Origin: a virus
DNA: 22,208 nucleotides
Reading direction: 5' to 3' (one strand)
IMG/VR virus record: IMGVR_UViG_3300021964_000605
Span: 1 to 22,208 of that record
The position numbers and the translations under genes were made by a program. The notes under the pieces are model-generated. The model ran no database searches and was not told the DNA's origin. It saw nothing but the letters and a program-made list of their open reading frames with translations. Shown in pieces: positions 1-16,053 of the stretch (its first letter is position 1; every line of letters begins with the position of its first letter).

Positions 1-39
1 GGCAGCACTGTTCTTACCTATAATACCAGCATTACGCAT
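1..39 (-). CDS. 5' end of an adhesin-like gene (partial)
   Basis: An ATG at 37-39 overlaps the TAA of the 119-aa gene at 39-398 (TAATG) and opens a frame that runs off base 1, reading MRNAGIIGKNSAA. The start matches that of the SPRY protein at 661-1374 (MRNGGYKGIN) and, more loosely, that of the beta-propeller protein (MRGIGGILAQ). Both of those also begin at a TAATG overlap behind a small structural protein. A Shine-Dalgarno GAGGA lies inside the 3' end of the upstream gene. I infer another receptor-binding or head-domain protein. Only 13 codons are visible, so its body is unknown. Confidence 0.7.
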   Translation of the reverse strand, partial: MRNAGIIGKNSAA

Positions 40-398
40 TAGCTGATTTCCTCATAGGAACAAATTGCCTGCAGAGATGAATTTGCGCTTGCTGTAACTG
101 CCAATGCTGTTCCTTCTTCAAGATACAATTGAAGATTTTTATCGATTGCTGAAAATGATGAGTCTGCATCAACAGCAACTGTCTTCACTAACGAGTACCC
201 AGTGCCACCAGTAAAGTAATCTACATTAATATCAGCGGCATTTACTCCATCAATATTTGATATGATTAATGAATTAATCTTAAATACTTTACCACTTGCG
301 GCTGAGTTTACTACAAGATTGGCTTGATCAGAAGAAACGCTTGCCGCAACTGTCTTTCCTGTAATCGTTGTTAAGCCTGCTATATTTGGCGCTGCCAT
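39..398 (-). CDS. Small structural protein, second copy of a 119-aa paralogue pair
   Basis: This 119-aa protein has no recognisable named domain. It is the same length as the product of 1374-1733 and aligns without gaps at about 65% identity by eye. The conserved cores are NSAASGK, KINSLIISN, KTVAVDADSSF and YLEEG. It is probably a compact beta-rich virion protein: no Cys pattern, no signal peptide, no membrane segment. The start has a strong ribosome site (AGGAG in ATAGGAGAATAG), shared with the paralogue. Its last codons read EEIS-stop, contain GAGGA, and overlap the next ATG by TAATG, so the downstream gene is probably translated by coupling. I infer a cap or connector that carries the next adhesin. 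It could also be a decoration protein. Confidence 0.85.
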   Translation of the reverse strand: MAAPNIAGLTTITGKTVAASVSSDQANLVVNSAASGKVFKINSLIISNIDGVNAADINVDYFTGGTGYSLVKTVAVDADSSFSAIDKNLQLYLEEGTALAVTASANSSLQAICSYEEIS

Positions 399-414
399 TT
401 TCTATTCTCCTATT
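399..414 (-). promoter_or_regulatory. Ribosome site of the 119-aa gene, shared by three genes
   Basis: The minus strand reads ATAGGAGAATAGAAA before the ATG. The other 119-aa gene has ATAGGAGAATAAA, and the chaperone gene at 5375 has TTAGGAGAATGTAA. The shared TAGGAGAAT leader suggests a duplicated or strongly selected initiation site. Confidence 0.6.
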
Positions 415-651
415 TTAATCGACAAAATACCATGAGGAATTTGCCGAACTCCATTCAACTACTCTATAATCTTCTGGTGCGGCATCTTCTGGCAAATCCT
501 GAACGGGAATAACAGGTGCCACAGTATAACCTTCTTGAAGCATTAGTTCGTGTGTTACTGATTCTTTTGTTCTCGTGCTTCCGTCAGACAATCTAAGTCT
601 AAAAGGAAGTGTTTGAGGATATGAACCATTTTTAGTGTATAATGTCGTCAT
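415..651 (-). CDS. 78-aa tail-fibre-locus small protein
   Basis: A 78-aa protein beginning MTTLYTKNGSYPQTLPFRLR, then LSDGSTRTKESVTHELMLQEGYTVAP, and ending VVEWSSANSSWYFVD. Short proteins with a 'YxKxGxYPxxLPxRxRLSDGxTRT' start and a final W-rich strand are familiar to me from marine phage fibre loci, where they are usually unassigned. The layout (small N-terminal domain, Pro-rich linker, closing W motif) is reminiscent of the front half of fibre-assembly chaperones such as the 149-aa protein at 4926-5375, but the chaperone helix is missing. It sits between the two copies of the 119-aa gene, so it may belong to the same cassette. Function not assigned. Confidence 0.75.
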   Translation of the reverse strand: MTTLYTKNGSYPQTLPFRLRLSDGSTRTKESVTHELMLQEGYTVAPVIPVQDLPEDAAPEDYRVVEWSSANSSWYFVD

Positions 652-660
652 AATAATCCC

Positions 661-1374
661 CTAGTGTACCTGAAATCCAACTGGTACTGAGTTTTGAATA
701 CTAGCACCTACTAAAAATTCACCTGTAATATTAATAGTACCACTAGAGCCATTTCCAAATAACACTCTATAATTCCCATCATCTCCATAAGTGCTGTATC
801 CATATATATCTACACCAGCACCCCCCGTATCAGGGTCACCAGTTTGGGATGCCCATGTGTCATTAGCACCAAACCATAATTTACCAGTAGTTAGATCATA
901 AGCGCATCTTAATAATTCTGGTTCAGTGTTAAAACCCCCAATACCAGATGAAGTAGCGCCAGGATAAAAATTACCATTACTAGCGTACCACATATTAATA
1001 CCAGCGATATTATATGTTTGAGTGCCTGAAGTTGCATTTTGGTGCGCTATAGGACAGACCATGTGAGATGCTCCGCTAGCAGTTTTAATGTTTATTTCAA
1101 AATAAAATTTACCGCCGCTTCTTAATCTGCTAGAAAATATTCTTGTGTTAGTGCCACCAGATGTATCAATGCTCCAATCAGAGGTTGACCCATCAGCATT
1201 TACAGTTCCGTTGTTATTTGGTGCGTCACCATCCCAAGTTATTGGAACAGAGGGAGAAAACCAAGACCCACCAAATCTTTTTGTTAATTCAAATTGATCT
1301 CTAGATGTATGAATCCCTCTAGTTCCTGTAACAGCGGAAGGATCATTGATCCCTTTATAACCACCATTTCTCAT
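661..1374 (-). CDS. SPRY-domain adhesin-like protein
   Basis: This 237-aa protein has a short N-terminal peptide (MRNGGYKGIN, residues 1-10), a linker through about residue 50, and a SPRY-like beta-sandwich at about 86-215. SPRY features are GKFYFEINI (88-96), the YDLTTGKLWFGANDTW stretch (159-174), the following GDPDTGG (179-185), and a closing strand near 200-215. In phages such domains occur in tail-fibre and receptor-binding proteins, where they bind surface glycans or proteins. The ATG overlaps the stop of the 119-aa gene (TAATG at 1374), with a GAGGA ribosome site inside that gene, so the two are probably made in fixed ratio. I infer that the N-terminal peptide docks the adhesin and the SPRY domain binds the receptor. 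The domain call is fairly firm; the ligand is unknown. Confidence 0.85.
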   Translation of the reverse strand: MRNGGYKGINDPSAVTGTRGIHTSRDQFELTKRFGGSWFSPSVPITWDGDAPNNNGTVNADGSTSDWSIDTSGGTNTRIFSSRLRSGGKFYFEINIKTASGASHMVCPIAHQNATSGTQTYNIAGINMWYASNGNFYPGATSSGIGGFNTEPELLRCAYDLTTGKLWFGANDTWASQTGDPDTGGAGVDIYGYSTYGDDGNYRVLFGNGSSGTINITGEFLVGASIQNSVPVGFQVH

Positions 1375-1733
1375 TAGCTGAGATCCTCATATGAACAAAC
1401 TGCTTGTAAGTCGCCATTGGCGCTTGCAGTTACTCTTAGTGCATCGCCTTCTTCAAGATATATTGAAAGGTCTTTATCAACAGCAGTAAAGGAAGAATCA
1501 GCGTCAACCGCAACTGTTTTAACAATATGATATGCTATGCTATCTCTATAAACATCTACAGTAATATCTGCTGCACTTGTACCATCAACATTAGAAATAA
1601 TTAAAGAATTGATCTTTAAAACTTTACCGCTTGCCGCTGAGTTAGTAACAATGCTTGTAGCACTTGTGATTACATTTGCTGTTGCAAGTTTTCCTGTTGC
1701 TGTTGTTAATGCAAGTATTGAGGGGGCTGCCAT
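1374..1733 (-). CDS. Small structural protein, first copy of the 119-aa paralogue pair
   Basis: A 119-aa paralogue of the product of 39-398: same length, no gaps, about 77 of 119 identical residues by eye. Identity is concentrated in NSAASGK, KINSLIISN, KTVAVDADSSF and the C-terminal CSYE. Differences cluster at residues 16-30 and 59-69, which may be exposed loops. The start has the same AGGAGAATA ribosome site as the other copy. The gene ends SYEDLS-stop, and its GAGGA precedes the overlapping ATG of the SPRY gene. I infer a cap or connector protein for the adhesin next door. No named family is recognised. Confidence 0.85.
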   Translation of the reverse strand: MAAPSILALTTATGKLATANVITSATSIVTNSAASGKVLKINSLIISNVDGTSAADITVDVYRDSIAYHIVKTVAVDADSSFTAVDKDLSIYLEEGDALRVTASANGDLQAVCSYEDLS

Positions 1734-1742
1734 TTTATTCTC

Positions 1743-1946
1743 CTATCTACCAAATATCACATTATATCCAAAAATTGTTGTTGCTGATGCACCACCGCCA
1801 CCAACTGCTTGACCTGGAGTCAATGTTACAACATTGGCGTTTGCGTCAGTAATTTTTAAAGTGCCGCTATCTGCTCCGAGCGTAACAGCTGAAGATCCTG
1901 TTCCAATCTGTATTGTGTTTGCTGAAGATCGAATTACTGTTGCCAT
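1743..1946 (-). CDS. 67-aa small fibre protein, paralogue of the N-terminus of the 153-aa protein
   Basis: The first 53 or so residues, including ANTIQIGTGSSAVTLGADSG and the LTPGQAVGGGG stretch, match the N-terminus of the 153-aa protein at 7592-8053 (ANTVQIGTGSSAVFLGADSG). After the glycine hinge the two diverge: this one ends in the short hydrophobic tail TTIFGYNVIFGR. The 975-aa fibre just upstream also ends in GGGGAS followed by a short hydrophobic tail. I infer a small beta-structured connector whose C-terminal tail docks into a partner. It starts 5 bases after the stop of the 975-aa gene, so the two are probably co-transcribed. Molecular function unknown. Confidence 0.8.
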   Translation of the reverse strand: MATVIRSSANTIQIGTGSSAVTLGADSGTLKITDANANVVTLTPGQAVGGGGASATTIFGYNVIFGR

Positions 1947-1951
1947 CTTTA

Positions 1952-4879
1952 TTACCCAAATACTAATGCCATTGCAATGGCCGTTCCTGTTGATGCTCCA
2001 CCTCCACCTGACTCAGCGGCAAAGTAGTATGTGGTATTTGCTGACGAATATTTTAAAACATGACCGTCCGTTGGCGTTACCTGAGCGACGTCAGTTAATC
2101 CAGCAAGAGTTGAGCTTCCGCCGCCTCCGCCTTCTAATGTTACCAATCTTACATTTGTATTGGCGACATATGATTGAAATTGACTATTACTTACACCACT
2201 TAAGACTTGTTGACCAATTGCTTTGATCTCACGAATAGCAACAATCTCTCCATTGATAGGAGCAGTTCCAAATGTTACTGTATTTGAAGCAAATGTGTAG
2301 TCGGTAGTAGGACGCTGAATCACGCCATCCAATGTTACAATTAGATCTTCGGCACCTGTTACGTCATTATTAATACTAAAAGCAGTTTGTGTACCATTAG
2401 CTGTAAAGGTCGTTACTGCTAAGTCAGAGAATGTTGGAGTGCCGCCTCCTCCGCCAGTGGCTGCAATTACAATGGTATTGTTACCAGCTGTAGGAGTAAG
2501 TGTTATTCCTGAACCAGCGTCTATTGAAAGTCTTGCCGTTGACCCAGCAGAATCAATTAATGTGCCGCCAACCTCAATGACGGAAAAGCTGTTTCCTCCA
2601 GCGCCGCCACCAGTTTCCGCTGCAAAATAATAAGTTGTATTAGAGGATGAATATTTTAGAACATGTCCGTCAGTGGGAGTTACCTGAGCGACGTCAGTTA
2701 ATCCAGCAAGAGTTGTAATAGCGTTAGCAACCTGAAGGCGATCGCTTATCAAAGTTCTTAATGCTGTATTAGTTCCTGTTAAATTCGTATTAACTAAATC
2801 AATTCTAGTTGCTTGTGTATTGACTGAAGTGTTTACAGTTGCTAAGTCTGTTGTTGTTGCCAACACACCGTCGCTTACTGGAAGTTTTACAGTTACACTT
2901 CCGCCATATGCAGAATGTGGTTGTGATTGCAATCTAGCATAATGAAGATTACTAACTTCACAATAAAAATCTACGAAAGAAGGATTGCCTGTATCTGTGA
3001 AGATAGAAATTGCACCATTCGAAATGTGAACCCCAGAAGTAGAACCTGTGCTGTCTACTGCTAGATTGGCTGTCATAGATTGTGCAACTGAAGTTGTTTT
3101 ATTCACAAAGTTTGTATCAACATTTGCAACTTGATAACGGTCGTTGATCAAAAGAGTTGCATTAGCGACTTGTAAGCGATCGGCGATGGCTAGATTGGTG
3201 TTAGCAAGAGCTGCACGCTCAACAGCAATTGTCTGATAAGTCGCAGCAGCATTAGCGACTTGTAAGCGATCAGAGATAGCTAGATTAGTGTTAGCAAGAG
3301 CAGCTCGTTCTATTGCAATTGTCTGATAAGTCGCTGATGCATTAGCAACCTGCAAACGGTCAGCAATTGCTAGATTTGTATTAGCAAGAGCAGCTCGCTC
3401 AATAGCAATCGTTTGATAAGTCGCTGATGCATTAGCAACCTGAAGACGATCGCTAATTAATGTTCTAAGAGCAGTATTTGTTCCCGTTAGATTGGTGTTG
3501 ACTAAATCAATTCTTGTAACTTCAGTTTGCAGAGCAGCGTTTGTTGCAAGCGTGTCAGAATTTGAAATATCTGAAACGACCAATGCTCTTGTATCGACAC
3601 CATTAGTTGTATTACCAATGAATACATGTTTATCTTCTAAATTAGGAACATCGTTAGAACGACCAGCGCCCTGTATAAGAATTGTTCCAGCAGAAGCATG
3701 TGAACGAAGAACCTGACCAATTTTTTGAACTTTTACTGTATCACCTGATGGTCTTGTTCCTGTGAGTTTACCAGCGACCGTGTCAATGTAAAGTTCTTGA
3801 CCTACTGAAAACACGCCAGTGTTGGCATTTGTTATAATGCCATAAGTTGCAACACGAAGATTATTCCCTGTTGATACAGTATCGAGCGCAAGTCCAAGAG
3901 CAGGCATTTGAGCTGGATCATCTGCATCAGCAAGTTCTACAAGAGGTCTTTCTCCGCCAGCACTATATCCTGAAACTGAAACTGGCTGACCGAAATTAAT
4001 TGTTCCTCCAGATTCATTTCTTGCCTGAATAATTGTTGCTGACGCTTCACTAACTTTTATAAAAGTCCCATCAGCTTCGCCATATTCCCAATATTCCCCA
4101 GTCTCATTCCAACGAAAATATACGTTTGCTTCAGCGCCACGATTTACAATAATGCCAGCATTTTCTGTTGCAGCTGTTCCACTCCCTAAATCTGAATTAA
4201 GAAGAATGTAAGTATTGGAAACATTTACCTGAGTTGTGTTTACTTCAGTTTTTGTTCCTGAAACAGTAAGGTTTCCGGAGATAAGAACATTGTTGTTAAA
4301 GGTGACTTGACCGCCAACAGATTGCGCCGCAGTTCCATCTTTACGAAGGAAACGTGTATCAGCATTGGCAACCTGAATGCGATCGTCAATTAATGTGCGA
4401 AGCGCAGTATTTGTGCCAGTTAGATTGGTGTTAACAAGGTCAATACGTGTTGCTTGATCGGCAATATATGAATTAGTATTAGCGAGTGCTGCTCGTTCTA
4501 TTGCAATTGTCTGATAAGTTGCTGAAGCATTGGCAACCTGAAGACGATCGTTTATTAACAAAGTTGCATTCGCTACTTGTAATCTATCAGCTATAGCTAG
4601 ATTAGTGTTTGCTAGGGCTGCTCTTTCAATTGCTATTGTTTGGAAAGTTGAATCGGCGTTAGCAACTTGTAATCGATCAGCAATGGCTAGATTGGTATTT
4701 GCTAGGGCAGAATTAAAAACAGACTCGGTCGTAAATGTGCTTGCCAACATTGCATCAGTGATTGTAGCATCACTAATTGTATTGTTTGCGTGTAGCTTTC
4801 CGTTGCTACCGAATACTGTAAGAGTTGAGTTGGCAACAGCAAATCCATGCTTCGCCACAAAAGGTTTTTTATCTGCCAC
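1952..4879 (-). CDS. Large modular tail fibre protein (975 aa)
   Basis: The protein is a chain of phage fibre modules. Residues 57-135 and 456-585 hold repeats around DRLQVANA and AALANTNLAIA, most with a 30-residue period and probably trimeric coiled-coil stalk. Residues 200-270 form a NLTVSG..VNVSNTYILLN..RWNETGEYWEYG module. Residues 275-415 are a known adhesin module with PVSVSGYSAGG, LADADDPAQMPALGLALD and KVQKIGQVLRSHASAGTILI. Residues 722-755 and 924-957 are TDVAQVTPTDGHVLKYSS modules. The end is a Gly-rich hinge and a short hydrophobic tail. The start codon is GTG (4877-4879) behind AGGGA; no better upstream start is needed because the MADKKPFVAKHGF start is fibre-like. A TATAAATA box lies 34 bases upstream. 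I infer a trimeric fibre or stalk on the virion. Confidence 0.9.
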   Translation of the reverse strand: MADKKPFVAKHGFAVANSTLTVFGSNGKLHANNTISDATITDAMLASTFTTESVFNSALANTNLAIADRLQVANADSTFQTIAIERAALANTNLAIADRLQVANATLLINDRLQVANASATYQTIAIERAALANTNSYIADQATRIDLVNTNLTGTNTALRTLIDDRIQVANADTRFLRKDGTAAQSVGGQVTFNNNVLISGNLTVSGTKTEVNTTQVNVSNTYILLNSDLGSGTAATENAGIIVNRGAEANVYFRWNETGEYWEYGEADGTFIKVSEASATIIQARNESGGTINFGQPVSVSGYSAGGERPLVELADADDPAQMPALGLALDTVSTGNNLRVATYGIITNANTGVFSVGQELYIDTVAGKLTGTRPSGDTVKVQKIGQVLRSHASAGTILIQGAGRSNDVPNLEDKHVFIGNTTNGVDTRALVVSDISNSDTLATNAALQTEVTRIDLVNTNLTGTNTALRTLISDRLQVANASATYQTIAIERAALANTNLAIADRLQVANASATYQTIAIERAALANTNLAISDRLQVANAAATYQTIAVERAALANTNLAIADRLQVANATLLINDRYQVANVDTNFVNKTTSVAQSMTANLAVDSTGSTSGVHISNGAISIFTDTGNPSFVDFYCEVSNLHYARLQSQPHSAYGGSVTVKLPVSDGVLATTTDLATVNTSVNTQATRIDLVNTNLTGTNTALRTLISDRLQVANAITTLAGLTDVAQVTPTDGHVLKYSSSNTTYYFAAETGGGAGGNSFSVIEVGGTLIDSAGSTARLSIDAGSGITLTPTAGNNTIVIAATGGGGGTPTFSDLAVTTFTANGTQTAFSINNDVTGAEDLIVTLDGVIQRPTTDYTFASNTVTFGTAPINGEIVAIREIKAIGQQVLSGVSNSQFQSYVANTNVRLVTLEGGGGGSSTLAGLTDVAQVTPTDGHVLKYSSANTTYYFAAESGGGGASTGTAIAMALVFG
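2009..2110 (-). repeat. TDVAQVTP module near the 975-aa C-terminus
   Basis: Its DNA at 2076-2112 is identical over 37 bases to 2679-2715 in the same gene. Its DNA at 2010-2062 differs by 2 of 53 bases from 7674-7726 in the 153-aa gene. Confidence 0.8.
2615..2716 (-). repeat. TDVAQVTP module, inner copy of the 975-aa fibre
   Basis: Codes for residues 722-755. It contains the 37-base exact repeat 2679-2715 shared with 2076-2112. The NSFSVIEVGG module follows it. Confidence 0.8.
3125..3514 (-). repeat. 90-bp repeats, second stalk array of the 975-aa fibre
   Basis: Codes for residues 456-585. A TRIDLVNTNLTGTNTALRTL unit is followed by three units of DRLQVANAxATYQTIAxERA plus ALANTNLAI, at exact 30-residue (90-base) spacing. 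A half unit (TLLINDRYQVANV) closes the array. The TRIDLV unit recurs at residues 144-173 and 691-720. Confidence 0.85.
4475..4711 (-). repeat. Coiled-coil stalk repeats, first array of the 975-aa fibre
   Basis: Codes for residues 57-135: copies of (A)LANTNLAIADRLQVANA, one with 30-residue spacing, plus a shorter TLLINDRLQVANA copy 13 residues on. Copies differ mostly at synonymous positions. Confidence 0.8.
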
Positions 4880-4890
4880 TAGAGTTCCCT
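4877..4890 (-). promoter_or_regulatory. Ribosome site that fixes a GTG start
   Basis: The minus strand reads AGGGAACTCTA then GTG (4877-4879). The AGGGA with 6-base spacing, and the fibre-like peptide MADKKPFVAKHGF that follows, support GTG as the start of the 975-aa protein. Confidence 0.6.
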
Positions 4891-4912
4891 ATCCGTCTAA
4901 TGATTTCAGTTC

Positions 4913-4920
4913 TATTTATA
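4913..4920 (-). promoter_or_regulatory. Late promoter box TATAAATA for the 975-aa fibre
   Basis: The minus strand reads TATAAATAGAAC in the 46-base gap between the chaperone and the 975-aa fibre gene, 34 bases upstream of the GTG start. It is an intergenic, exact match at the expected distance and the best promoter candidate in the window. Confidence 0.6.
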
Positions 4921-4925
4921 ATATA

Positions 4926-5375
4926 TTATTCTGGTTCTGTTGGCCAAGTTACAGAATATGGATATCCTTCTTGCGATGTAATATCACGAAGTGCTTGACG
5001 GTATGTTGACCATGCTGTATTAGCCACGCCAGTCTCGGCTGCCTTTACTGCAATCCAATCTGAATCTTTTAACAAAAGATCTCTTTTATGCTTAATTAAT
5101 TTTTCTGCATCTGCTTGCGGTCTATTTGATACAGTCCATGATTGACGCCAAATACCATCACCATCTTTAACTGGAGTGTCTCTTGTAAGTATTTGAGTCA
5201 TATCATCAAAATTTTCAGGATATGCATCTACAATAACATCATACATGTTGTATGATTCTAATGCTTCTTTACCCATATTTTTAGGGAAAGAAGTCCTAGG
5301 ATTATCTCTTACCAATTGCTGATAACGATATGGATATTGTAAAACATTATCATTATCATCCACTAATACATACAT
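4926..5375 (-). CDS. Tail fibre assembly chaperone (Phage_tail_APC-like)
   Basis: The 149-aa protein has a variable front domain (MYVLVDDNDNVLQYPY...) and a C-terminal segment at about 97-148 typical of phage tail-assembly chaperones: KRDLLLKDSDWIAV, then WSTYRQALRDI, then YPYSVTWPTEP. In the family, which resembles the T4 gp38/lambda Tfa class in role, such proteins help fibre trimers fold or attach and are encoded beside the fibre gene they serve. Here the 975-aa fibre follows 46 bases downstream and the beta-propeller adhesin precedes it, so either may be the client. The ribosome site AGGAG is in TTAGGAGAATG. The full C-terminal motif is present. Confidence 0.85.
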   Translation of the reverse strand: MYVLVDDNDNVLQYPYRYQQLVRDNPRTSFPKNMGKEALESYNMYDVIVDAYPENFDDMTQILTRDTPVKDGDGIWRQSWTVSNRPQADAEKLIKHKRDLLLKDSDWIAVKAAETGVANTAWSTYRQALRDITSQEGYPYSVTWPTEPE

Positions 5376-5385
5376 TTACATTCTC

Positions 5386-7092
5386 CTAATATTTTGTTCT
5401 TCTGATATTTGTTAAAGCCATCCAGTCATAGGTGTGAGCAAAAAGTTGATCACTGACTCCAGTTCCAAATACAGAAAGTTTTGTTCCATCGCTATTTATA
5501 TACATACCAGTGATGAAATAATTTGTTGACATGTTCAAGCCAATCACTGCATTTCTTGATGCCGTAGAAAGATCATATGGTGTACTTAAATCAAATTCAT
5601 ATAGCCCTTGCTCGTTATTGTTAAATAATGCGCCTACAACACCAAAATAAGCATATAATTTTGTACCATCATTGTTGAAATACGCTTGCCGTAACGCAAC
5701 ATTTGTAAGTGCGTCATCACCCAAAAATGTATCAAAGTCTTGTGTCTGTTCAGCTGTAATTGAAGATGGGTCAAATGGAGTTGATAAAGTAAATTTATTT
5801 ACAAACCCAGCACTTTCTGCTGTTAACATATAGGTTCCATCCGAAGAATATGACAAACCAAAATCTAAAGTTGTTGAATATGAATTTAATAGTACACTTA
5901 CCGTAGTGCCTATAGTTGATACATCCCACGGTGTTGACATTGGAAATATTCTAACATAGTCTGTATCCATACAATGAATCTCTGTTCCATCAGGAGTAAT
6001 ATACATACCACCATAATTCATACTGATAGATGTATCATGTTCTACTCGGGAAGTTAAATCTATTGTGGTTGGATCCCAAGCTGTTCCCACTGTGTATTGT
6101 TGAATAGGATATGGTGAAACATATTCAAAGGTGTAAAAGTAAGTTCCATCAGGATGCCAAAACCCACCAACCAGTATTGTATTATAGGTGGTAAAACTTT
6201 TAACCCTATCATCAAATGCCTGTTGATTGACACCTGTAGGAATTGATCCATCTTGGTTTAAAGATATTTGTCTCATATAGTCTGGATCTGAGGCAACAAG
6301 TCTATTACTGTTGCCATCCCTGACCATCGACATACCCCATATCATTGATGCAGCAGTAGATACTTCTTGTAAGCTGGCTAAATTTACTGTTGAAATATCC
6401 CAAGCTGTGCTGAGAGTAAATCGTTGAATAGGATATCCTGAAACATATTCATGCGTGTATAGATAGTAACCATCATCACTAAAATCAAATCCACCGATTG
6501 CCTGACAATATGTAGTAAGGTCTTTTTCGTCAACATATGTCGATGTTGAAATGTCCCAAGCTGTACTTAGATCATACTCAGTTATGATTTGTTCACCATA
6601 TTGAGCAACATATAATTTTGTTCCATCCGTCTTAAAAGCAATATCAGCACTATTAGCTGGAATAGACATTGATTTATATGTTGCACTAATTGTTGTTACG
6701 TCTCCTGGACTACTCATTGTAAATTGATATAATGTATCATTTCCATCTTCTACAACATAAACATATGTGTCGGTTGGATCTACATAGATACCTCTTTCGC
6801 CTGTAAAATTTACTATACTTGTAAGGGTGAGTTTGGTTGCTCCTGCATTGGCTATGTCAACACCAGTTCCAACATCATATTTTCTTTCAAGTGGTATAGA
6901 ATAAATGTCATTGCTGACATCCATAAAATACAAATAATTTCCACTTGGACTGATACAACCAGCACCAAATCCTGTATCCTCTTCCCCTGCATAATATGCT
7001 TGATTCAAGCCAAATTCTTCAGCATTATCCAGTAAGAATCCTTTTTTATTACCAGATGCTGCTTGAGCGAGAATACCACCAATGCCACGCAT
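5386..7092 (-). CDS. Beta-propeller-like adhesin with nine repeats (568 aa)
   Basis: After a start peptide MRGIGGILAQAAS, the whole protein is made of about nine repeats of 50-60 residues. Each has a strand pair near (S/P)DGTKLY followed by a tag such as LSTAWDIST. The tag Asp falls near residues 73, 131, 180, 232, 281, 340, 390, 441 and 507; the copy near 281 is degenerate (SLNQDGSIPT). Two repeats share the near-identical stretch EYVS(G/P)YPIQ (215-223, 323-331). This pattern is that of YVTN/WD-like beta-propellers, so I infer a propeller head, perhaps a receptor-binding or glycan-recognition domain. The start overlaps the stop of the 166-aa gene (TAATG at 7092) behind AGGA. An enzyme cannot be excluded, but no catalytic motif is visible. 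Confidence 0.8.
   Translation of the reverse strand: MRGIGGILAQAASGNKKGFLLDNAEEFGLNQAYYAGEEDTGFGAGCISPSGNYLYFMDVSNDIYSIPLERKYDVGTGVDIANAGATKLTLTSIVNFTGERGIYVDPTDTYVYVVEDGNDTLYQFTMSSPGDVTTISATYKSMSIPANSADIAFKTDGTKLYVAQYGEQIITEYDLSTAWDISTSTYVDEKDLTTYCQAIGGFDFSDDGYYLYTHEYVSGYPIQRFTLSTAWDISTVNLASLQEVSTAASMIWGMSMVRDGNSNRLVASDPDYMRQISLNQDGSIPTGVNQQAFDDRVKSFTTYNTILVGGFWHPDGTYFYTFEYVSPYPIQQYTVGTAWDPTTIDLTSRVEHDTSISMNYGGMYITPDGTEIHCMDTDYVRIFPMSTPWDVSTIGTTVSVLLNSYSTTLDFGLSYSSDGTYMLTAESAGFVNKFTLSTPFDPSSITAEQTQDFDTFLGDDALTNVALRQAYFNNDGTKLYAYFGVVGALFNNNEQGLYEFDLSTPYDLSTASRNAVIGLNMSTNYFITGMYINSDGTKLSVFGTGVSDQLFAHTYDWMALTNIRRTKY
5493..5500 (-). promoter_or_regulatory. Possible late promoter box TATAAATA inside the propeller gene
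   Basis: The minus strand reads TATAAATAGCG, within codons for YINSD, 118 bases upstream of the chaperone gene start at 5375. It could drive the chaperone plus the 975-aa fibre, or be chance. Confidence 0.3.
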
Positions 7093-7592
7093 TACGACAT
7101 ATCCTGTCCTGCGATAAAGCCATAATATGTTGTACCGCCATCTGTGGTAAAGAATGCAAACACATCAACATCACCATTGCCTGTTGAGAGTGTTGGTGCA
7201 GCACCACTCTCCCAATCTACTGATGCTGGCCAAGTAATAGTTCTCGATCCTGTCGCATCTTGAGTGACCTTGATTACAAAACTAAATCCTGTTCCACTTG
7301 ATGGTGGATTGCTGAATGTGTATGTTACAGCGCCAGTAAGTGTATGTTGAAAGATCGTTGCAGTTTGAAGATCAACTGTCACCGATCCTGTCGCACTTGC
7401 ATTTGTTGAAACATTCTCATATCCAAGAATGTTTGAAAACTTTTCTTTAGCGAGAGGATATCCCCCTGCTTGTGAATTATCGTGAACAACAACGGTGTCC
7501 TTATCAGTATCGACTGTAACTTCACCAACAGCGCCAGTGAAGCTGCTGTGCTCAGCTGTTGTTCCTCTTCTCAATTGTATCTGTGTTGGCAT
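7092..7592 (-). CDS. Small tail fibre protein with Mtd_N-like N-terminus (166 aa)
   Basis: Residues 1-50 (MPTQIQLRRGTTAEHSSF, then GEVTVDTDKDTVVVHDN) match the short N-terminal domain found in phage adhesins such as the major tropism determinant, which anchors the trimer to the tail. Residues 60-166 form a beta-rich module common in marine phage fibres: TATIFQHTLTGAVTYTFSNP, then DATGSRTITWPASVDW, then FFTTDGGTTYYGFIAG. There is no C-type lectin domain and no reverse transcriptase nearby, so it is not a diversity-generating Mtd. The gene is coupled on both sides by TAATG. Its QDMS-stop end carries the AGGA that serves the beta-propeller gene. I infer a connector or short spike. Confidence 0.85.
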   Translation of the reverse strand: MPTQIQLRRGTTAEHSSFTGAVGEVTVDTDKDTVVVHDNSQAGGYPLAKEKFSNILGYENVSTNASATGSVTVDLQTATIFQHTLTGAVTYTFSNPPSSGTGFSFVIKVTQDATGSRTITWPASVDWESGAAPTLSTGNGDVDVFAFFTTDGGTTYYGFIAGQDMS

Positions 7593-8053
7593 TAGGTTAT
7601 TGCTCCATAGTCTGCTGTTGAATCTGCTGATCCCGTTATTAATCCATAATCAGCATCACCACCACCTCCGCCCGACTCAGCGGCAAAGTAGTATGTAGTA
7701 TTTGCTGAAGAATATTTTAAAACATGCCCATCTGTTGGTGTAACCTGCGCAACGTCTGTCAAGCTGGCAAGCGTTGAACTTCCTCCGCCCGACTCAGCTG
7801 CAAAGTAATAAGTTGTGTTTGATGATGAATACTTGAGAACATGTCCATCAGTTGGTGTTACTTGTGCTACATCTGTTAATCCAGCGAGAGTTGAACTTCC
7901 ACCGCCGCCTACTGCTTCTCCAGGAGTAAGCGAAACAACGTTAGCATTAATGTCAGTGATTCTCAAAACACCACTATCAGCACCAAGAAATACTGCAGAG
8001 GAACCTGTTCCAATCTGTACTGTATTTGCTACAACTCTTATTCTTTGTGTCAT
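7592..8053 (-). CDS. 153-aa modular fibre connector
   Basis: Residues 1-52 match the 67-aa protein at 1743-1946 (ANTVQIGTGSSAVFLGADSG). Residues 55-87 and 94-127 are two tandem copies of the LTDVAQVTPTDGHVLKYSS module. A Gly run (128-132) then leads to a tail with two DYGxIT motifs (135-140 and 148-153). All parts occur elsewhere in the locus, so this is a small chimera of fibre modules. It is coupled by TAATG to the 520-aa gene upstream and the 166-aa gene downstream. I infer a structural connector in the same fibre complex. No catalytic feature. Confidence 0.85.
   Translation of the reverse strand: MTQRIRVVANTVQIGTGSSAVFLGADSGVLRITDINANVVSLTPGEAVGGGGSSTLAGLTDVAQVTPTDGHVLKYSSSNTTYYFAAESGGGSSTLASLTDVAQVTPTDGHVLKYSSANTTYYFAAESGGGGGDADYGLITGSADSTADYGAIT
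7673..7891 (-). repeat. Tandem TDVAQVTP modules in the 153-aa gene
   Basis: Two copies, 39 residues apart, of the LTDVAQVTPTDGHVLKYSS module with NTTYYFAAESGGG. Other copies lie at 2009-2110 and 2615-2716 (975-aa fibre) and at 8491-8589 and 8824-8922 (520-aa fibre), making six in all. Confidence 0.85.
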
Positions 8054-9615
8054 TATGCGCTCACCGTTATTCTTACCGTTTCGATGGTTGAGTTATTATA
8101 TGATGGTGTTACTAATAACCTCACATTTCCACCAGAAACATCTGCATCAATAGAAGCAATTGGTCCAGCGGTTGCAACCGATCCATATTCAGTTAAAAAT
8201 GCTGCTGAACCATTATGAACTAACAAAACCTCACTTGTTTGGAATCGATTGTTATCATCATCATGAGTAACCTGAACAATATATTTAGCTGACCTAAACG
8301 CTGTTGATGAGAAACTATCCACCACAGTTTGAGAAGCGGTGGCAATAGTTTCATCATTAGCTGTTGTAATATATGGTCTTGCTTCTAGAGAGGTAATTCT
8401 GGGATTGGTGTTAGAAACATAAGATTGAAAATCTGCATTGGTTGTAAATGTGCTAGTTAAATATGCGTTTGAGACACCGCCTGCAGCGCCAGATTCAGCT
8501 GCAAAATAATAGGTGGAGTTCGCTGAAGAATACTTTAAAACATGTCCATCTGTTGGTGTCACTTGAGCAATATCAGATAAATCTTGCAATTGTGTTGCGA
8601 CTGGAATTCCGCCTGTTCTTACAACAACAACACTATCGTTTAATGGTGCTGGGCTAATTGTTACAGTGGTTCCGGAGATAGAATAGTCGGTTGTCGGTAT
8701 TTGTAAAACACCATCAATGGTGACCAACACATCTTTAGGATCGCTGGTAGAAATCGGCGAAGTAAATGTGGTTTGCGTTCCATTAGCAGTAGTTGCTTGG
8801 AATGAAGAAGAAGTTACAGTTGCATCCGCAAAATAATATGTGGTATTTGATGTTGAGTATTTTAAAACCTGTCCGTCTGAAGGAGTTACCTGCGCAACAT
8901 CCGTCAGCCCTGCTAAAGTCGTAATAGCATTTGCAACCTGTAAACGATCTGCGATAGCGAGATTGGTATTCGCCAAAGCTGCACGTTCAATTGCTATGGT
9001 TTGATAAGTGGCAGCAGCATTGGCAACTTGAAGACGATCATTTATCAATAGTGTAGCGTTGGCAACCTGTATTCTATCAGAGATTGCTAAGTTAGTATTT
9101 GCTAATGTCGATTGGAATGTTGTGTTAGTTACAAATGTGCTTGTTAGATAAGCATTAGAAACTTCACCACCACCTGTAGAGGAGATAACAATTGTATTGT
9201 TACCAGCAGTTGGCGTGAGAGTAATTCCTGAACCAGCATCAAGAGATAATCTTTGCGTTGATGCAGTCGCCTTAACTAGAGTTCCGCCAACTTCAATTAC
9301 CGAGAAGCTGTTTGCGGTAGCACCACCACCTGACTGGTCTTGAAATGTAAGTGTGCCAGTTCCGTTAGTTACAAGAACTTGATCCGCTGTACCGTCTGAT
9401 GTTGGGAAAGTAATAGCGCCATTGCCGATAGAAAATCCGCCAGCGCCAACATAAAGAGAATGAACATTTGCACCAACTTCGAAGACATTTGTTCCGTTTG
9501 AAGAATAAAGACGACCGTCTCTTAAGTTAAGTGCTAACTCACCAGTGTCAATATTGCTTGTGGTTGGAACCTTCCCAGCAATGGAAGTTCGTTTTGTATA
9601 AATCTTCGAAGACAT
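8053..9615 (-). CDS. Modular tail fibre protein (520 aa)
   Basis: Modules in order: an N-terminal anchoring segment (about 1-50; IYTKRTSIAGKVPTTSNIDT, GELALNLRDGRLY) of the Mtd_N-like type; NSFSVIEVGG...SGITLTPTAGNNTIVI (102-150); coiled-coil repeat DRIQVANA/DRLQVANA (170-230); TDVAQVTPSDGQVLKYS (233-264); DVLVTIDGVLQIPTTDY (295-335); a second SDIAQVTPTDGHVLKYSS (346-375); and a C-terminal domain (about 412-520; FRSAKYIVQVTHDDDNNRFQ, SEVLLVHNG, LLVTPSYNNSTIETVRI) recurrent in marine T4-like phage structural proteins. It shares five modules with the 975-aa fibre in a different order. An AAAGG ribosome site and a late-promoter-like box precede it after the 86-base gap. I infer a virion fibre. 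Confidence 0.9.
   Translation of the reverse strand: MSSKIYTKRTSIAGKVPTTSNIDTGELALNLRDGRLYSSNGTNVFEVGANVHSLYVGAGGFSIGNGAITFPTSDGTADQVLVTNGTGTLTFQDQSGGGATANSFSVIEVGGTLVKATASTQRLSLDAGSGITLTPTAGNNTIVISSTGGGEVSNAYLTSTFVTNTTFQSTLANTNLAISDRIQVANATLLINDRLQVANAAATYQTIAIERAALANTNLAIADRLQVANAITTLAGLTDVAQVTPSDGQVLKYSTSNTTYYFADATVTSSSFQATTANGTQTTFTSPISTSDPKDVLVTIDGVLQIPTTDYSISGTTVTISPAPLNDSVVVVRTGGIPVATQLQDLSDIAQVTPTDGHVLKYSSANSTYYFAAESGAAGGVSNAYLTSTFTTNADFQSYVSNTNPRITSLEARPYITTANDETIATASQTVVDSFSSTAFRSAKYIVQVTHDDDNNRFQTSEVLLVHNGSAAFLTEYGSVATAGPIASIDADVSGGNVRLLVTPSYNNSTIETVRITVSA
8491..8589 (-). repeat. TDVAQVTP module, second copy in the 520-aa fibre
   Basis: Codes for residues 343-375 with the variant LQDLSDIAQVTPTDGHVLK. 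It leads into the second SNAYLTSTF segment and the C-terminal domain. Confidence 0.75.
8824..8922 (-). repeat. TDVAQVTP module, first copy in the 520-aa fibre
   Basis: Codes for residues 232-264, with the variants TPSDGQ and KYSTS. It joins directly to the stalk repeats, as the inner copy of the 975-aa fibre does (DRLQVANAITTLAGLTDV in both). Confidence 0.8.
8926..9108 (-). repeat. Stalk repeats in the 520-aa fibre
   Basis: Codes for residues 170-230: three DR(L/I)QVANA units with the same linkers (TLLIN, TYQTIAIERAALANTNLAI) as the 975-aa fibre. This is the same repeat family in a second gene. Confidence 0.85.
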
Positions 9616-9658
9616 ATCTAGCCTTTAATTGTTCAATCTCTATGTAGAGCGTTTTATG

Positions 9659-9666
9659 TATTTAGA
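9659..9666 (-). promoter_or_regulatory. Late-promoter-like box TCTAAATA before the 520-aa fibre
   Basis: One mismatch from TATAAATA. It lies in the only sizeable intergenic gap, 44 bases before the ATG at 9615, and abuts the hairpin at 9666-9689. The location supports a real promoter despite the mismatch. Confidence 0.45.
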
Positions 9667-9689
9667 GAGGGGATTATATAACCCCCTCT
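9666..9689 (-). terminator. Hairpin after the 541-aa fibre gene
   Basis: An inverted repeat lies 12 bases after the stop: the AGAGGGG arm (9666-9672) pairs with CCCCTCT (9683-9689). One A-C mismatch and two further A-T pairs follow, around an ATAT loop. There is no U-tract after it on either strand, so it is not a textbook intrinsic terminator. It may stop transcription weakly or protect the mRNA 3' end. Confidence 0.45.
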
Positions 9690-9701
9690 ACATATTATAT
9701 A

Positions 9702-11327
9702 TTAGAACGTGCCACCGTCGATAATAGCATCGACTTGAGCAAGAGTGTATCCAGCTGCACCAGTATCAACTGTCGTTCCTGGTTCAGACTGACTTTCTTT
9801 ATAGAATTTAAAGATTTCGTCTGTAGAGTCACGGAAGTAACCAGCATATTTCGTGGTTGCCCCATCAACATACATTGCGTAAACACCAGAGTCTGCAGAG
9901 TCAGCTGAGTTATTAGCTGACAATTTGATCATGCTGTCGTCAACATTTACTGTAGAAGAACTGATATATGTTACGCCGCCTTCAACGGTAAGAGAACCAT
10001 CGATAACTGTGTCGCCACTAATTCTTGCATCGCCACCAACGAAAATGTTTTCAGCAATACCAACACCACCATCAACAACTAATGCACCAGAAGAAGTTGA
10101 TGTCGATCCAGTCGTTCCGTTGATTGCTACATCATTAGTGATAGTAAGGTCATTTCCGATCGTTACGTCATTTGGTAAACCAATCGTAACAGAGGCGGTT
10201 TCTGAACCAGAACCACTTACTTCAATCTCACTAGCTGTACCAGAAATCGTGGCAACATAGTTACCAGTTGTTTTAGTTCCAAGAGCAACTGAGTTGTCAC
10301 CAACAGCGTTGGCAGTAATAGCATTTGGCGCAAGTTGGGTTGAGGTGATTACACCATCAGCAATCGAGTTAGCAGAAATTGCCTTTGAACCAATTTGCGT
10401 AGATGTGATTTGAGCATCTGCAATAGAGTTGGCAAAAATACCTTTTGAGGAAATTTGTGTTGACGAAAGAGTTCCGTCAGCAATTTTACCATTAAGAATG
10501 GTTTTGTCTGCGATTTCAGCGTTTACGACACCGCCATCTTTAATCGTTACTGCGCCAGAGGAAACTGAGAAGTTATCGGTGCTAAATGAAGCCACACCTT
10601 TCTGAGATGTTGTAGCATCTTTTGCAGTAATTGTTACAGTAGTTCCAGTGGCAGAAGTGTCGATGCCCTGTGCGTCCGTGCCAGCGATAGTAAATGTTTC
10701 GCCGAGAGTTGCTGCTGAAGTTCCTGTATCACCTGCTAATGTGAGGTCGGATGCGCTAACTGCGCCAGAACTAACACTAAAATGCGTAGAGTCAAAAGAT
10801 GCGACACCTTTTTGAGAATCCGTAGCATCCTTAGCTGTTATTGTAACTGTCGTTCCTGTCGCAGAAGTATCGATACCTTGAGCATCTGTACCAGCGATTG
10901 TCATAGACTCGCCGATAGTTGCAGCAGCAGAACCAGTATCGCCGCTTAACGTTAAGTCTTTAGCAGAAACTGCACCAGAAGATACGGTGAAGCTAGTCGT
11001 GTCAAAAGATGCAATACCTTTATTGGAAGTCGAAGCATCTTCGCCAGACCAAACATATGCACCGTTAGCAGCTTTCGTGATATCAATACCTTCGCCAGCT
11101 TCAATTTGAAGTGAAGTTTGGATATCGGTATTGGAGGAAGAGCCGCCAGCGCCATCCCCTAATTCGACAGTAAATGAGCCAGATAATGCTCTAGGATCCC
11201 CAGAAGAATCACCAACCCACAACAGACCGTCAGTGATGTTTACCGCAAGTTCCCCTTCGCTCAGAGATCCACTGGATGGTACTGCACTGGTGGTGGTACT
11301 GCGTTTAATTTTAATAATAGACGCCAT
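9702..11327 (-). CDS. Tail fibre protein with 70-aa and 20-aa repeats (541 aa)
   Basis: Residues 1-50 (IKIKRSTTTSAVPSSG, LSEGELAVNITDGLLWVGD) form the short anchoring domain seen in many marine phage fibres. Residues 97-166 and 167-236 are 70-aa repeats (KGVASFD..., DLTLAGDTG, AGTDAQGIDTSATGTTVTIT), with a third partial copy to about 265. Residues 282-341 are three 20-aa repeats of the IADGxITSTQxxxxAI(T)ANS type. Residues 400-515 hold the VDGGVGIAEN / GSLTVEGGVTYISSSTVNVDD / IFKFYKES module. The C-terminus is short. A strong AAGGAGTGA ribosome site precedes the ATG, and a TATAAATA box lies 61 bases upstream inside the 103-aa gene. I infer an elongated trimeric fibre. Confidence 0.9.
   Translation of the reverse strand: MASIIKIKRSTTTSAVPSSGSLSEGELAVNITDGLLWVGDSSGDPRALSGSFTVELGDGAGGSSSNTDIQTSLQIEAGEGIDITKAANGAYVWSGEDASTSNKGIASFDTTSFTVSSGAVSAKDLTLSGDTGSAAATIGESMTIAGTDAQGIDTSATGTTVTITAKDATDSQKGVASFDSTHFSVSSGAVSASDLTLAGDTGTSAATLGETFTIAGTDAQGIDTSATGTTVTITAKDATTSQKGVASFSTDNFSVSSGAVTIKDGGVVNAEIADKTILNGKIADGTLSSTQISSKGIFANSIADAQITSTQIGSKAISANSIADGVITSTQLAPNAITANAVGDNSVALGTKTTGNYVATISGTASEIEVSGSGSETASVTIGLPNDVTIGNDLTITNDVAINGTTGSTSTSSGALVVDGGVGIAENIFVGGDARISGDTVIDGSLTVEGGVTYISSSTVNVDDSMIKLSANNSADSADSGVYAMYVDGATTKYAGYFRDSTDEIFKFYKESQSEPGTTVDTGAAGYTLAQVDAIIDGGTF
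10305..10484 (-). repeat. 60-bp (20-aa) repeats in the 541-aa fibre
   Basis: Three consecutive 20-residue units (residues 282-341) beginning IADGTLSSTQI, IADAQITSTQI and IADGVITSTQL. This family is common in phage fibres and probably forms a beta-helical or coiled shaft. Confidence 0.8.
10535..11039 (-). repeat. 210-bp (70-aa) repeats in the 541-aa fibre
   Basis: Two full copies (residues 97-166 and 167-236) and a partial third. Residues 144-166 and 214-236 are identical in protein, while the matching DNA differs at 16 of 70 positions by my count, all silent. Confidence 0.85.
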
Positions 11328-12518: not shown

Positions 12519-15500
12519 TAAGAAACATCCTCTATTGAAAGTGCAGTTAGACTGTCATCACTATTTAGGGCGACCACAATAAGTATCTGATTGTTATAAG
12601 AATTGGTAGAAGAAACTGTACCAAGCGTCAGATCGAATGTTTGATTGCTATACGAAGTTCCGTCAATAATTCTATCGGCTCCAGTAAATGCGCAACCATT
12701 TGAGCCATTACCACCGTTTCCTGTATCCGCTCCTGGAACACCCGAACCAGCATATTGAATACTTGCGTCAACCCAACCATTTAAAGTTGATGCGCTGTCA
12801 ATAGCAGTTCCTGGAGCTGCGACATAGAAGCCAGAAACTTTACCAGTCAAACGAACACGGAAGTTTGAGACAGCTGTTCGTTTAAAGGCAAAACGGAAAT
12901 ATTGTGTTCCCGAACGACCTGTTGCTAGGTCTGGACCAGTCGGTAAATATCCACTTGATAAATCTGTATCAAAATGCGTTAGTGAGCCATAACGAATAAT
13001 CGCCTCATCCGTCCCTGCCACAGTTTCTGCACCTGACCAAGCATTGTCAACATAGAAGTCAGTTGTTGAGCCGAAAGATGGCGTTGCTCCTGTGAATCCA
13101 GTTATGCGAACACCATCAGTGTCGAAGCCAGCACCAAGGTCATCAGCAACAGAAATTGCCGCTTCGTTGATAACGTCGGTTCCATTAAACACCTGAATAA
13201 TCGGAGAGGTGATAGTTTCTGTATCATCACCATTTACGTTATATGCTGAGAACGTCAATCTAACTGCACGATCGCCAGTGGAAACATTTACCGTCAAATC
13301 TTCAAGGCTTGCTGAAGAGATACCAGCATTTGGTATTGAACCAGTTATATCACCAACAGCCAATGCCGTTGAATATGTGTATGACTGATCAGCAATACCT
13401 GTTCCTGAAGATCCCTCAATATTAGTGTCGCCAACGATAAATGGTGAGGAAGTATCACGATAAGTTTGACCTGTAAGATTCGTTACGACAACGCCACTCA
13501 AAGTCAAACTATCTCCGCTGTCATAGTATGGAACACCAGAAATATAGTTGTAAGAAGCAGACGCCTCAGTAATCGTTGCACCAGATACGTCAACTGTAGG
13601 AGCAGAAGTCATAGTATCATAAACATAGAACAATTCGTTTGAATTTCCTTCAATCGTAGAGAGTTCTGCTTTGTTAACCCCAGCAGACCCAGATGTAACA
13701 TCATATGAAATTCTGGCTTTGGCTCCTGTTTCATATAAACCTTGTGCATAAATTCTATTTTCAGCTGAGACAGCAGCGCCAGTTGCATCATAATTATAGT
13801 AATCTACACCGCTCTCATCGGTCGTAGGAGAGCCTGCAGAGGAGTCGTTTATTAATTGGGTAATTGAACCTGTATTATGGAAATATGTGCTCATGGAGGC
13901 TGTGGAGACCGTTCCAGAGGTATATCTAGGGAAAGATGAGCTTATCGAGTCACCAGCTGATTTACCTGATGCATTTTCAGTAAATCCAGCTGCCAGTTTA
14001 GGTGAAGTTCCTGAAGAGGATGACGCCCAAGAAATCGTTTTGGTTGTTAAATCATTAGGAGCGGCGATTCCTGTATCAAACACCTTAAAATTAGCGGTGG
14101 TTGTAAGTGGGAATATTCCTGGATCGCCAGCACTGAAACTATTAGCTGCAAGAGTTATTGTAAAACGACCAGACCCAGAATCTGTCGAGTATGTATGACC
14201 AAGTCTAGCACCCTGTGGACCACCATCATCAACTTTACTATCAATACCCTCAATAGAACCACCGTCTCCCCAATCAATACTGAATGTTGCTGTTATATCG
14301 GTGTTAGGAATGTTTGTTGTGGTATTTTCAATATAAATCGTCTCGCCTGTATTGGCTTCAGTAGTTGTAGAACCACCAGATAATGCGTCATGAATAGTAA
14401 ATGATGGAACAGGGTCGGCGAGATATATGGTTACATAATCTGTTCTTGAAAATGTTGCATTACTTCCTTCTCCCGAACCGCTAGTATTTCGTGCTGTTAC
14501 TGCAATATCAAAAGGTGAATTAGCGTTTGAAACATATGTGTGTGATGGTGTTGCGCTTGCTGTTGTATCTACTGTTCCATCGCCCCAGTTAATTGTATAT
14601 TGATTTGGTGAACCTGTTGCAAGTAATGAGAGAGTGACTGACGTTCCTGCGCCTCCAGAAGTTGGATTGGCTGTAAATGTAACGCTTCTAACATAACTAT
14701 TGTTATTGATATTTAACATTGCTTCATTGAGTTTATCAATTGCTTCATAGATTGTATCATCTGAAACGATGGATGTAACTGCGCCATCTGTAATGTCTTG
14801 ACCAACGCCCATAGTTGCGCCATTGGCAATAAAATTAACATTAGCAATACGACTATCAACATAAAGTTTAGTTGTTAGATCGTTATTTGAAACAGGCTGC
14901 GATAGACTCTGTAAAGTGTTAGCAAATACAATATGATTATTTACAAATACATCGCCAAGAATATGAACATCACCGAATGTGCTATTACCAGTGACTGTGA
15001 GAATATTTAAGCTGGCATTGCCGCTAATTGATAAATTTTCACCATTAAGCTCAATATCTTCTTCACCAGAACTCAAATAAGTCTTTACAAACCCAACGGA
15101 AGCAAGAAATGAATCGTTTGCTGAAATATCGTTTGTTGTTACACCATCATCATATCTTGCTGGACCATAAAAAATAGAATTGCTTGTTAATACGATTAAA
15201 CTACCATTGGCAAGAATAGTTGTATTGCCAGCTGTGAATTCACTAACATCAATCGTTTGTGTAGAAAGCTGACCAATTACAGCATTAGAAACATTATCAA
15301 TGACATCAAGTGTGCCAGAACCTGTATCTGAAAGCGAAAGATTACCAATCGCAATCGTTTGACCAGCCAAGTATAAAGTTCTAAAGCGATTGCCTTCAGA
15401 ACCTAAGTCATAGACATTATTTTGTGTAGGAATAAGTGGACCAGTAATTCGAATAACACCATCTTCGCCTTTGATGATATTACCAGAAGTAAGTCGGAAC

Positions 15501-15700: not shown

Positions 15701-15702
15701 AC

Positions 15703-16053
15703 TTAGCTCCCTTCAGTGAATGTAACTTGTGGTGTAACCGTTGCAATACCTTCTATAAGTCTCGACTTAGTGTTAGCTGAAGTGTCTAAAATTTCAAGAT
15801 CGTAAACATAACGACCTGCTTCTAGATTAGCAGTTAAAAGTCTATCAAGTTTTAGTGTCAATTGTCCGCCAGTTCTTGGCGTTTCAAATTGTATTGTAAA
15901 GTTCGTTGCTGTAGTTGAAGTGTAATGTTTTCTAATCTGAGCAGCTGCTGTATAGCCAGTCAAATCTAATATATTACCATTCGTGTCTCTAATTGTTAGA
16001 GTCGTGGCAAAATCAGTTCCCTGATCAATGACAATATTTGCCTTTGCAGCCAT
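15703..16053 (-). CDS. Ig-like small virion protein (116 aa)
   Basis: The protein reads as a single beta-sandwich: IDQGTDFATTLTIRDTNG, then LDLTGYTAAAQIRKHYTS, then QLTLKLDRLLTANLEAGRYV, then YDLEILDTSANTKSRLIEGI, ending TPQVTFTEGS. Close relatives occur beside large fibre genes in T4-like marine phages, and the fold resembles the N-terminal domain of baseplate upper proteins (BppU-like). I infer a baseplate or fibre-attachment protein. The start overlaps the stop of the 1534-aa gene (TAATG at 16053), and a CATAAATA box lies 47 bases upstream inside that gene, so it may be expressed both ways. The 1060-aa gene follows after 2 bases. Confidence 0.85.
   Translation of the reverse strand: MAAKANIVIDQGTDFATTLTIRDTNGNILDLTGYTAAAQIRKHYTSTTATNFTIQFETPRTGGQLTLKLDRLLTANLEAGRYVYDLEILDTSANTKSRLIEGIATVTPQVTFTEGS

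Follow-up and report, generated by a model that had tools for sequence, protein, structure and literature searches.

The 22,208-nt virus record IMGVR_UViG_3300021964_000605 (IMG/VR; its full length is hereafter called the window) encodes four proteins of 975, 520, 153, and 67 amino acids (aa) that share short sequence modules in different arrangements. We consider it probable that the four genes belong to the adhesion/fibre array of a T4-like phage, and that array genes combine a slot-specific head with modules exchanged largely between phages. In this model, the head would fix the place of a gene in the array, as synteny shows for the 520-aa gene and as we infer for the 975-aa gene, and the interchangeable modules A/E, B, C, and D would sit behind it. 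The modules would be drawn from a pool common to many related phages and would move largely by between-phage recombination, the likely route being homologous or microhomology recombination among co-infecting T4-like phages. They would sometimes also pass between different array genes, cases of which are documented below and the share of which we infer. Stalk units would further multiply in tandem inside one gene, and C, F, and mostly B would also have been copied within this lineage. Protein sequences would have been kept similar as their synonymous codons drifted until agreement was close to chance, the different module orders being the residue of many gains and losses with no current local permutation machine. 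The exchange, tandem-growth, and intragenomic-copying steps are deduced from sequence.

The slot of the 520-aa gene is evident from gene order in related phages (contigs designated by L numbers). A gene with this head follows a 541-type gene, recognized by its C-terminal motif, in 26 of 26 loci (15 groups), with the slot gene running into the contig end in L014, L015, and L190. Behind the head, the slot genes of these loci carry no module, A, C, AC, CA, CCA/CCAGA, D, or CABDBA. Because the 26 loci came from module or fibre queries, we made a separate fetch with the head only, in which the best 80 of 337 stretches encoding a relative provided 72 loci in 55 groups, of which 49 include a complete gene; 16 of these loci lie on contigs already in the first set. 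None of the modules was found in 26 versions of the complete head-bearing genes, the others carrying D (8), A (7), C (4), AC (2), CA (2), CCA (1), CCAGA (1), or AG (1, a neighbouring gene), and B occurred in none of them; in this tally, groups with two versions count twice, gene position was checked for part of the set, and some heads come from rather different phages. A conserved N-terminal part is followed, at the same position, by variable distal parts in the 520 slot and presumably also in that of the 975-aa gene.

Three groups hold two versions of the slot gene, namely, L199/L208 (as L268/L270), L272/L288, and L235-L238, in the last of which the threshold may account for part of the D call, though lengths differ (212, 336, and 374 aa). 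The C-terminal ends differ too in the L245/L248 group. The sequences of L199 and L208 match at 95.4% identity for 5.8 kb until a break inside the slot-gene stalk, after which they differ, and a 942-nt block with 85.8% identity links L213, where it lies in the slot gene, to L209, where it lies in a later fibre gene. These two cases therefore indicate that modules move between phages and between array genes. The slot lets module exchange be followed between related phages, and offers a way to study the remodelling of the adhesion apparatus in T4-like phages. In L017, the 541-type and slot genes are separated by an open reading frame (ORF) with a NUMOD3 motif (9289-9876, minus strand), which is of homing-endonuclease type and could drive exchange at the slot.

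We located the modules by profile searches and all-against-all BLAST of the window proteins (Table 1). The best E-values were 1e-43 for the 520- and 975-aa proteins, 2e-25 for the 153- and 975-aa proteins, and 1e-18 for the 153- and 520-aa proteins, all inflated by switching off the low-complexity filter and the composition correction. Most pairs of B, C, and F copies are nevertheless 76-97% alike across stretches of 37-52 residues. Both approaches recovered modules A to E where the initial annotation had placed them, and the profiles reproduced its orders for the 520-aa (C-E-A-B-D-B-E) and 153-aa (B-B) proteins, the latter additionally starting with F. Of the order A-B-C-D-E-B proposed for the 975-aa protein, the B-C-D-E-B part holds, but three A blocks had been merged into one and an N-terminal E and the G module omitted. 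The sixth module, F (52 aa), is common to the 153- and 67-aa proteins with 77% identity, and the G profile also matches the 541- and 1534-aa proteins. Homologous domains are, then, common to proteins with otherwise unrelated parts, as in modular fibre genes. Rather than a separate module, E seems to be a variant form of the NTN-type stalk unit that A also represents; B is shown, at the level of sequence motifs, to be a variant of the widespread LxxLTDVxxxxPxxGQVLKY motif; and C would be a short beta-like module. All 10 Gly runs (three or more residues) in the four genes fall within 4 residues of a module edge, where ~2.4 are expected, with module edges having been set after sequence inspection; these Gly-rich edges would act as joints. 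The C-terminal tail of the 975-aa protein (window 1955-1993), STGTAIAMALVFG, is similar to the ends of head-bearing genes from L245, L249, and L272, and is a possible shared end cap.

Table 1. Modules and genes of the fibre array in the window.
Feature	Window position	Residues	Strand	Basis
975-aa fibre protein, order E-A-G-A-A-B-C-D-e-B	1952..4879		-	ORF, profiles
Weak E of 975		45-63	-	profile
A stalk unit 1 of 975, DRLQVANADSTFQTIAIERAALANTN	4601..4678	68-93	-	profile
A stalk unit 2 of 975	4472..4549	111-136	-	profile
T unit of 975		149-166	-	profile
G module of 975, LTVSGTKTEVNTTQVNVSNTYILLN	4079..4306	192-267	-	profile
A stalk units 3-5 of 975, tandem	3194..3451	T/A stretch 460-562	-	BLAST, profile
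T unit of 975		696-713	-	profile
B module 1 of 975 (B975a)	2606..2716	722-758	-	profile
C module of 975	2447..2593	763-811	-	profile
D module of 975 (D975)	2225..2425	819-885	-	profile
Weak partial E of 975		897-909	-	profile, 15.8 bits
B module 2 of 975 (B975b)	2003..2113	923-959	-	profile
520-aa fibre protein, order head-C-E-A-B-D-B-E-Cterm	8053..9615		-	ORF, profiles
Head of 520	9334..9615	1-94	-	conserved in gene after 541-type gene, related phages
C module of 520	9166..9312	102-150	-	profile
E (stalk variant) of 520	9091..9159	153-175	-	profile
A stalk unit of 520	8962..9039	193-218	-	profile
B module 1 of 520	8812..8922	232-268	-	profile
D module of 520 (D520)	8611..8811	269-335	-	profile; modelled, T7 gp17-N-like fold
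B module 2 of 520	8485..8595	341-377	-	profile
Second E of 520	8404..8472	382-404	-	profile
C-terminal domain of 520	8056..8373	415-520	-	relatives in fibre genes of L085, L086, L274
153-aa protein, F-B-B + DYG tail	7592..8053		-	ORF, profiles
F module of 153		1-52	-	BLAST
B module 1 of 153	7784..7894	54-90	-	profile
B module 2 of 153 (B153b)	7667..7777	93-129	-	profile
67-aa protein, F + short tail (absent from the initial annotation)	1743..1946		-	BLAST
541-aa protein, gene before 520 slot, carries G	9702..11327		-	profile match, gene order

Relatives of single modules were collected from IMG/VR, which returned at least 201 stretches for the stalk (78 loci kept), 164 for D (best 80 kept), and 49 for B, a scan with C returning the sister contig L022 alone. 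With repeats dropped, this first set comprised 215 records in 119 groups, window included. Several modules proved closer to other phages than to their window counterparts. D520 scored 53.8 bits to L191 and 53.7 to L209, both in the same gene slot, as compared with 46.5 to D975; G of the 975-aa protein scored 62.4 bits to L027 versus 28.7 to the 1534-aa protein of the window; and both E copies of the 520-aa protein were nearest the L019 group, the first one (E520a) scoring 24.6 bits to L019 versus 18.2 to the second (E520b). The A unit of the 520-aa protein was no closer to the 975 A units than to those of other phages. One B of the 153-aa gene and a B copy of L023 have a DNA identity of 0.86, the window copies reaching at most 0.85 among themselves, and in the D tree the copies of L085 and L076 pair by position. 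Among annotated phages, the stalk found no match, a weak negative since the low-complexity filter was on, and B found weak matches; a genome scan with B gave one weak match in a bacterial metagenome-assembled genome (55% identity over 31 residues).

The initial annotation had instead suggested a local module library, that is, that fibre genes are reassembled from their own genome's copies by recombination among its own fibre genes. We regard this as unlikely for the array as a whole, yet a series of observations weighs in its favour or otherwise against predominant exchange between phages. The two C copies are mutual best matches (~66 bits), all others scoring at most 25, or at most 28 in the later head-fetched set; F has close matches only within this phage in profile searches of both sets; and outside the window B has close matches only in L023 and L025, so that most of its copies are local. 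The best match of D975 is D520 (47.1 bits), narrowly over L191 (45.3), and a window-only D pair was not rejected in the D tree (approximately unbiased test, p 0.598), in which copies from 3 of 4 genes of L074 and from two genes of L099 cluster by contig. Stalk units show a small excess of nearest neighbours outside their own gene in the same contig (A units: 5.9% of 48 against an expected 1.7%; T units: 15% of 28 against 3.6%), and units within a contig have a slightly higher raw identity than those in different contigs (0.754 vs 0.744; 0.737 vs 0.702). Moreover, none of A, B, and C occurs in the slot gene of the closest relatives by head, which therefore do not point to a donor of the 520 modules; the module trees are weak because the modules are short. 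Exchange between two tailspike genes of one Ackermannviridae phage genome is also described experimentally in an excerpt of PMC11414711. A concentration of breakpoints in the stalk was not found either: 37 of 112 sides fell there versus 34.3 expected from its share of the gene (P 0.32; 56 breakpoints, 18 group pairs), and an apparent enrichment for breakpoints with both sides in the stalk (13 vs 5.3) was discarded as circular because the two sides are homologous.

Taken module by module, the local library fits C, F, and most of B, whose closest relatives, nearly so for B, are in the same genome; the outcome specified in the initial annotation as refuting it, that copies never cluster within the genome, was consequently not obtained. 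It does not extend to E, G, and the A unit of the 520-aa protein, for which other phages are as close or closer; for D the scores point both ways, D520 scoring higher to L191 and L209 and D975 to D520.

Codon usage speaks further to the origin of the copies. We scored the rate of identical codons at sites with an identical residue against the expectation from codon usage. Among window copies, observed and expected rates were 0.44/0.42 for B (15 pairs), 0.49/0.43 for the A unit, U (15 pairs), and 0.42/0.38 for T (3 pairs), and, with one pair each, 0.42/0.37 for C, 0.36/0.37 for F, 0.39/0.42 for D, and 0.29/0.43 for E; single pairs span 0.24 to 0.71. Two 119-aa paralogues of the window (39-398 and 1374-1733; 65% protein identity) reached 0.54 versus 0.42 (P 0.024), more agreement than the fibre modules show on average, and the test can therefore detect remaining ancestry. 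Since codon agreement is little above chance while the proteins are alike, most window copies are probably old. Near-identical modules in several genes of one genome, then, need not mean recent local shuffling. As a separate observation, in L191, L204, L209, and L222 the slot gene is followed by genes of ~110 aa that, from a reading of the ORFs, seem akin to these 119-aa paralogues.

In a synonymous shuffle, 4 of 36 window pairs fell below P 0.01 (uncorrected) and 32 did not. The four were B975a-B975b (0.0025) and B975b-B153b (0.005), whose common DNA blocks favour local copying, and two A pairs inside the 975-aa gene (0.008 and 0.0085); no pair involving the 520-aa gene was below P 0.01, which argues against the local library. 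Across 43 phage groups, the codon excess of stalk units was 0.105 inside a gene, 0.042 between contigs, and 0.021 between genes of one contig (-0.007 to 0.082; 63 pairs, 11 contigs). Between-gene agreement in one contig is thus not detectably above between-contig agreement, again contrary to a local library, although the wide interval of the former tempers this point. The informative sites of B975b fall into two blocks (raw P 0.0007), likewise in favour of local copying; that B module 2 of 975 is a mosaic of B module 1 of 975 and B module 2 of 153 is suggested but no more. A chimeric B975b was not significant across 504 triples, among which the single one at ~0.04 after correction is another triple. 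We also discarded active codon scrambling between repeats, as same-gene copies exceed chance (excess ~0.11 for A and 0.07-0.11 for T).

The differing module orders had been taken to denote permutation rather than simple duplication, a distinction that they do not support. The longest common subsequence of the 975 and 520 orders as initially annotated is A-B-D-B, and random orders reach or exceed four shared modules in 56% of shuffles. Under a strict rule, by which all copies of one module precede all copies of another in one gene and the reverse holds in the other, we found no conflict between window genes, and none in the 2 contig groups having two genes with at least two shared module types, the window being one of the two. 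Because shuffles do as well and no strict conflict exists, order says little on mechanism and does not separate permutation from gain and loss of copies. The same common core might suggest that the 975- and 520-aa genes are old paralogues that arose by gene duplication and later gained or lost C and E without permutation, and the A-B junction VANAITTLAGLTDVAQVTP is indeed identical in both. This scenario is nonetheless distinctly improbable, for an equal or longer core is expected in the above 56% of random orders, a similar junction, VANAVSTLAGLTDVAKVTP, is present twice in a fibre of L023, BLAST pairs neither the heads nor the C-terminal ends of the two proteins, and D975 and D520 are only 42% identical.

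Structure prediction was informative for D. The AlphaFold2 (AF2) model of D520, with D975 as row 2 of the underlying alignment, had a predicted local distance difference test (pLDDT) score of 90.4 and matched T7 gp17-N (7boz; VIA Z 8.6 over 68 of 71 residues), CBA120 TSP4 (7rfv, residues 187-250; VIA Z 9.2), and a tail protein of LME-1 (VIA Z 10.2 over 70 residues). The model thereby shows a predicted T7 gp17-N/CBA120 TSP4 fold, the T7 gp17 N-terminal (Phage_T7_tail) fold extending over most of D. The similarity of D to Pfam PF03906 (E 0.0013, 18.9 bits) was under the cut-off of 25.2, and that of the model to the T4 baseplate chain 5iv5_AC, which we take to be gp10, had a VIA Z of 6.9, below 8 (the tool's 'common' level). 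Antibodies that came up among the PDB matches of D were regarded as fortuitous, no PDB sequence matched the 520-aa protein, and an AF2 model of the 153-aa protein alone (pLDDT 35) was discarded. A/E units are probably trimeric coiled-coil stalk repeats, as the LANTNLAIADRLQVANA pattern suggests; N-layers are a feature of coiled coils. Rather doubtful is a broader reading in which A, almost invariant as protein but with freely varying codons across many T4-like phages, would be a community-wide standard connector, so that any array gene accepts any module, and in which moving D would rewire which fibre sits on which because its fold is of docking type, altering the topology of a branched array beyond receptor specificity.

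Fibre mosaicism of this kind is already known (PMC10684548, PMC3797505, PMC2993671; our comparisons refer to excerpts of the papers cited), and among open-licence papers we found no description of the modules reported here. Smug et al. 2023 (PMC10684548) describe receptor-binding proteins that share homologous domains in varied combinations, some old and some recent, taking at least 50% identity as contemporary sharing. The window likewise holds fibre proteins with common domains in different combinations, but here several genes of one genome share one module set, and, judging by codon drift, most of these copies would be old even though their proteins are highly identical. In T-even phages, distal tail-fibre parts are swapped (Tetart et al. 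1998, as cited in PMC3797505); both systems have conserved motifs and exchangeable parts in fibre genes, whereas here it is stalk units and Gly-rich edges that are shared, and the stalk shows no concentration of breakpoints. In the fibritin of T4-like phages, modules were swapped in the distant past, a process that has since stopped (PMC3797505); this is similarly an old module replacement in a T4-like structural protein, whereas in our case close relatives still differ in what follows the head. Pelagiphage tail fibres (PMC3909814) have a conserved N-terminus assigned to PF03906, protein-specific repeats, and a variable C-terminus, thus resembling our head, repeats, and variable distal part, but the PF03906-like D is distal here and the repeats are common to several genes and phages. 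Finally, Gp10-like XD domains link the branched tailspikes of Ackermannviridae and are proposed as recombination sites (PMC11414711). The modelled D resembles the CBA120 TSP4 domain, and the matched TSP4 stretch would correspond to an XD domain; however, D lies mid or distal in the fibre, XD is N-terminal, and a docking role of D is putative.

The long ORFs of the record form a structural cluster on the minus strand, in which a PF16778 tail assembly chaperone precedes the 975-aa gene and a 447-aa protein at the right window end has relatives among the VrlC-type proteins of rhizobial phages, cyanophages, and pelagiphages. Megablast of the window against annotated phages gave no match; its relatives suggest a T4-like, aquatic phage. 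As the window comes from a metagenome contig, repeats might have been misjoined during assembly, and the sister contig L022 (IMG 3300026187), which extends further left, does begin within a stalk repeat, at window base 3316. Such an artefact is extremely improbable, though: L022 is 99.6% identical over window 1-3316 and so backs the B-C-D-E-B end of the 975-aa gene, exact direct repeats in 1952-9615 reach 37 bases at most, short relative to usual read lengths, and the genes run uninterrupted; the 520- and 153-aa genes are covered by one contig only, the window.

Additional genes were noted around the fibre genes. Inside the cluster, a 568-aa protein (window 5386-7092) has weak beta-propeller (Lactonase) similarity and internal repeats. 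L022 encodes at 4454-5311 a 285-aa protein in which an S74 chaperone domain is accompanied by a Shufflon_N match below threshold. In the related phage L017, a reading of the ORFs places oxygenase-like and glycosyltransferase-like genes after the fibre genes (13245-19111).

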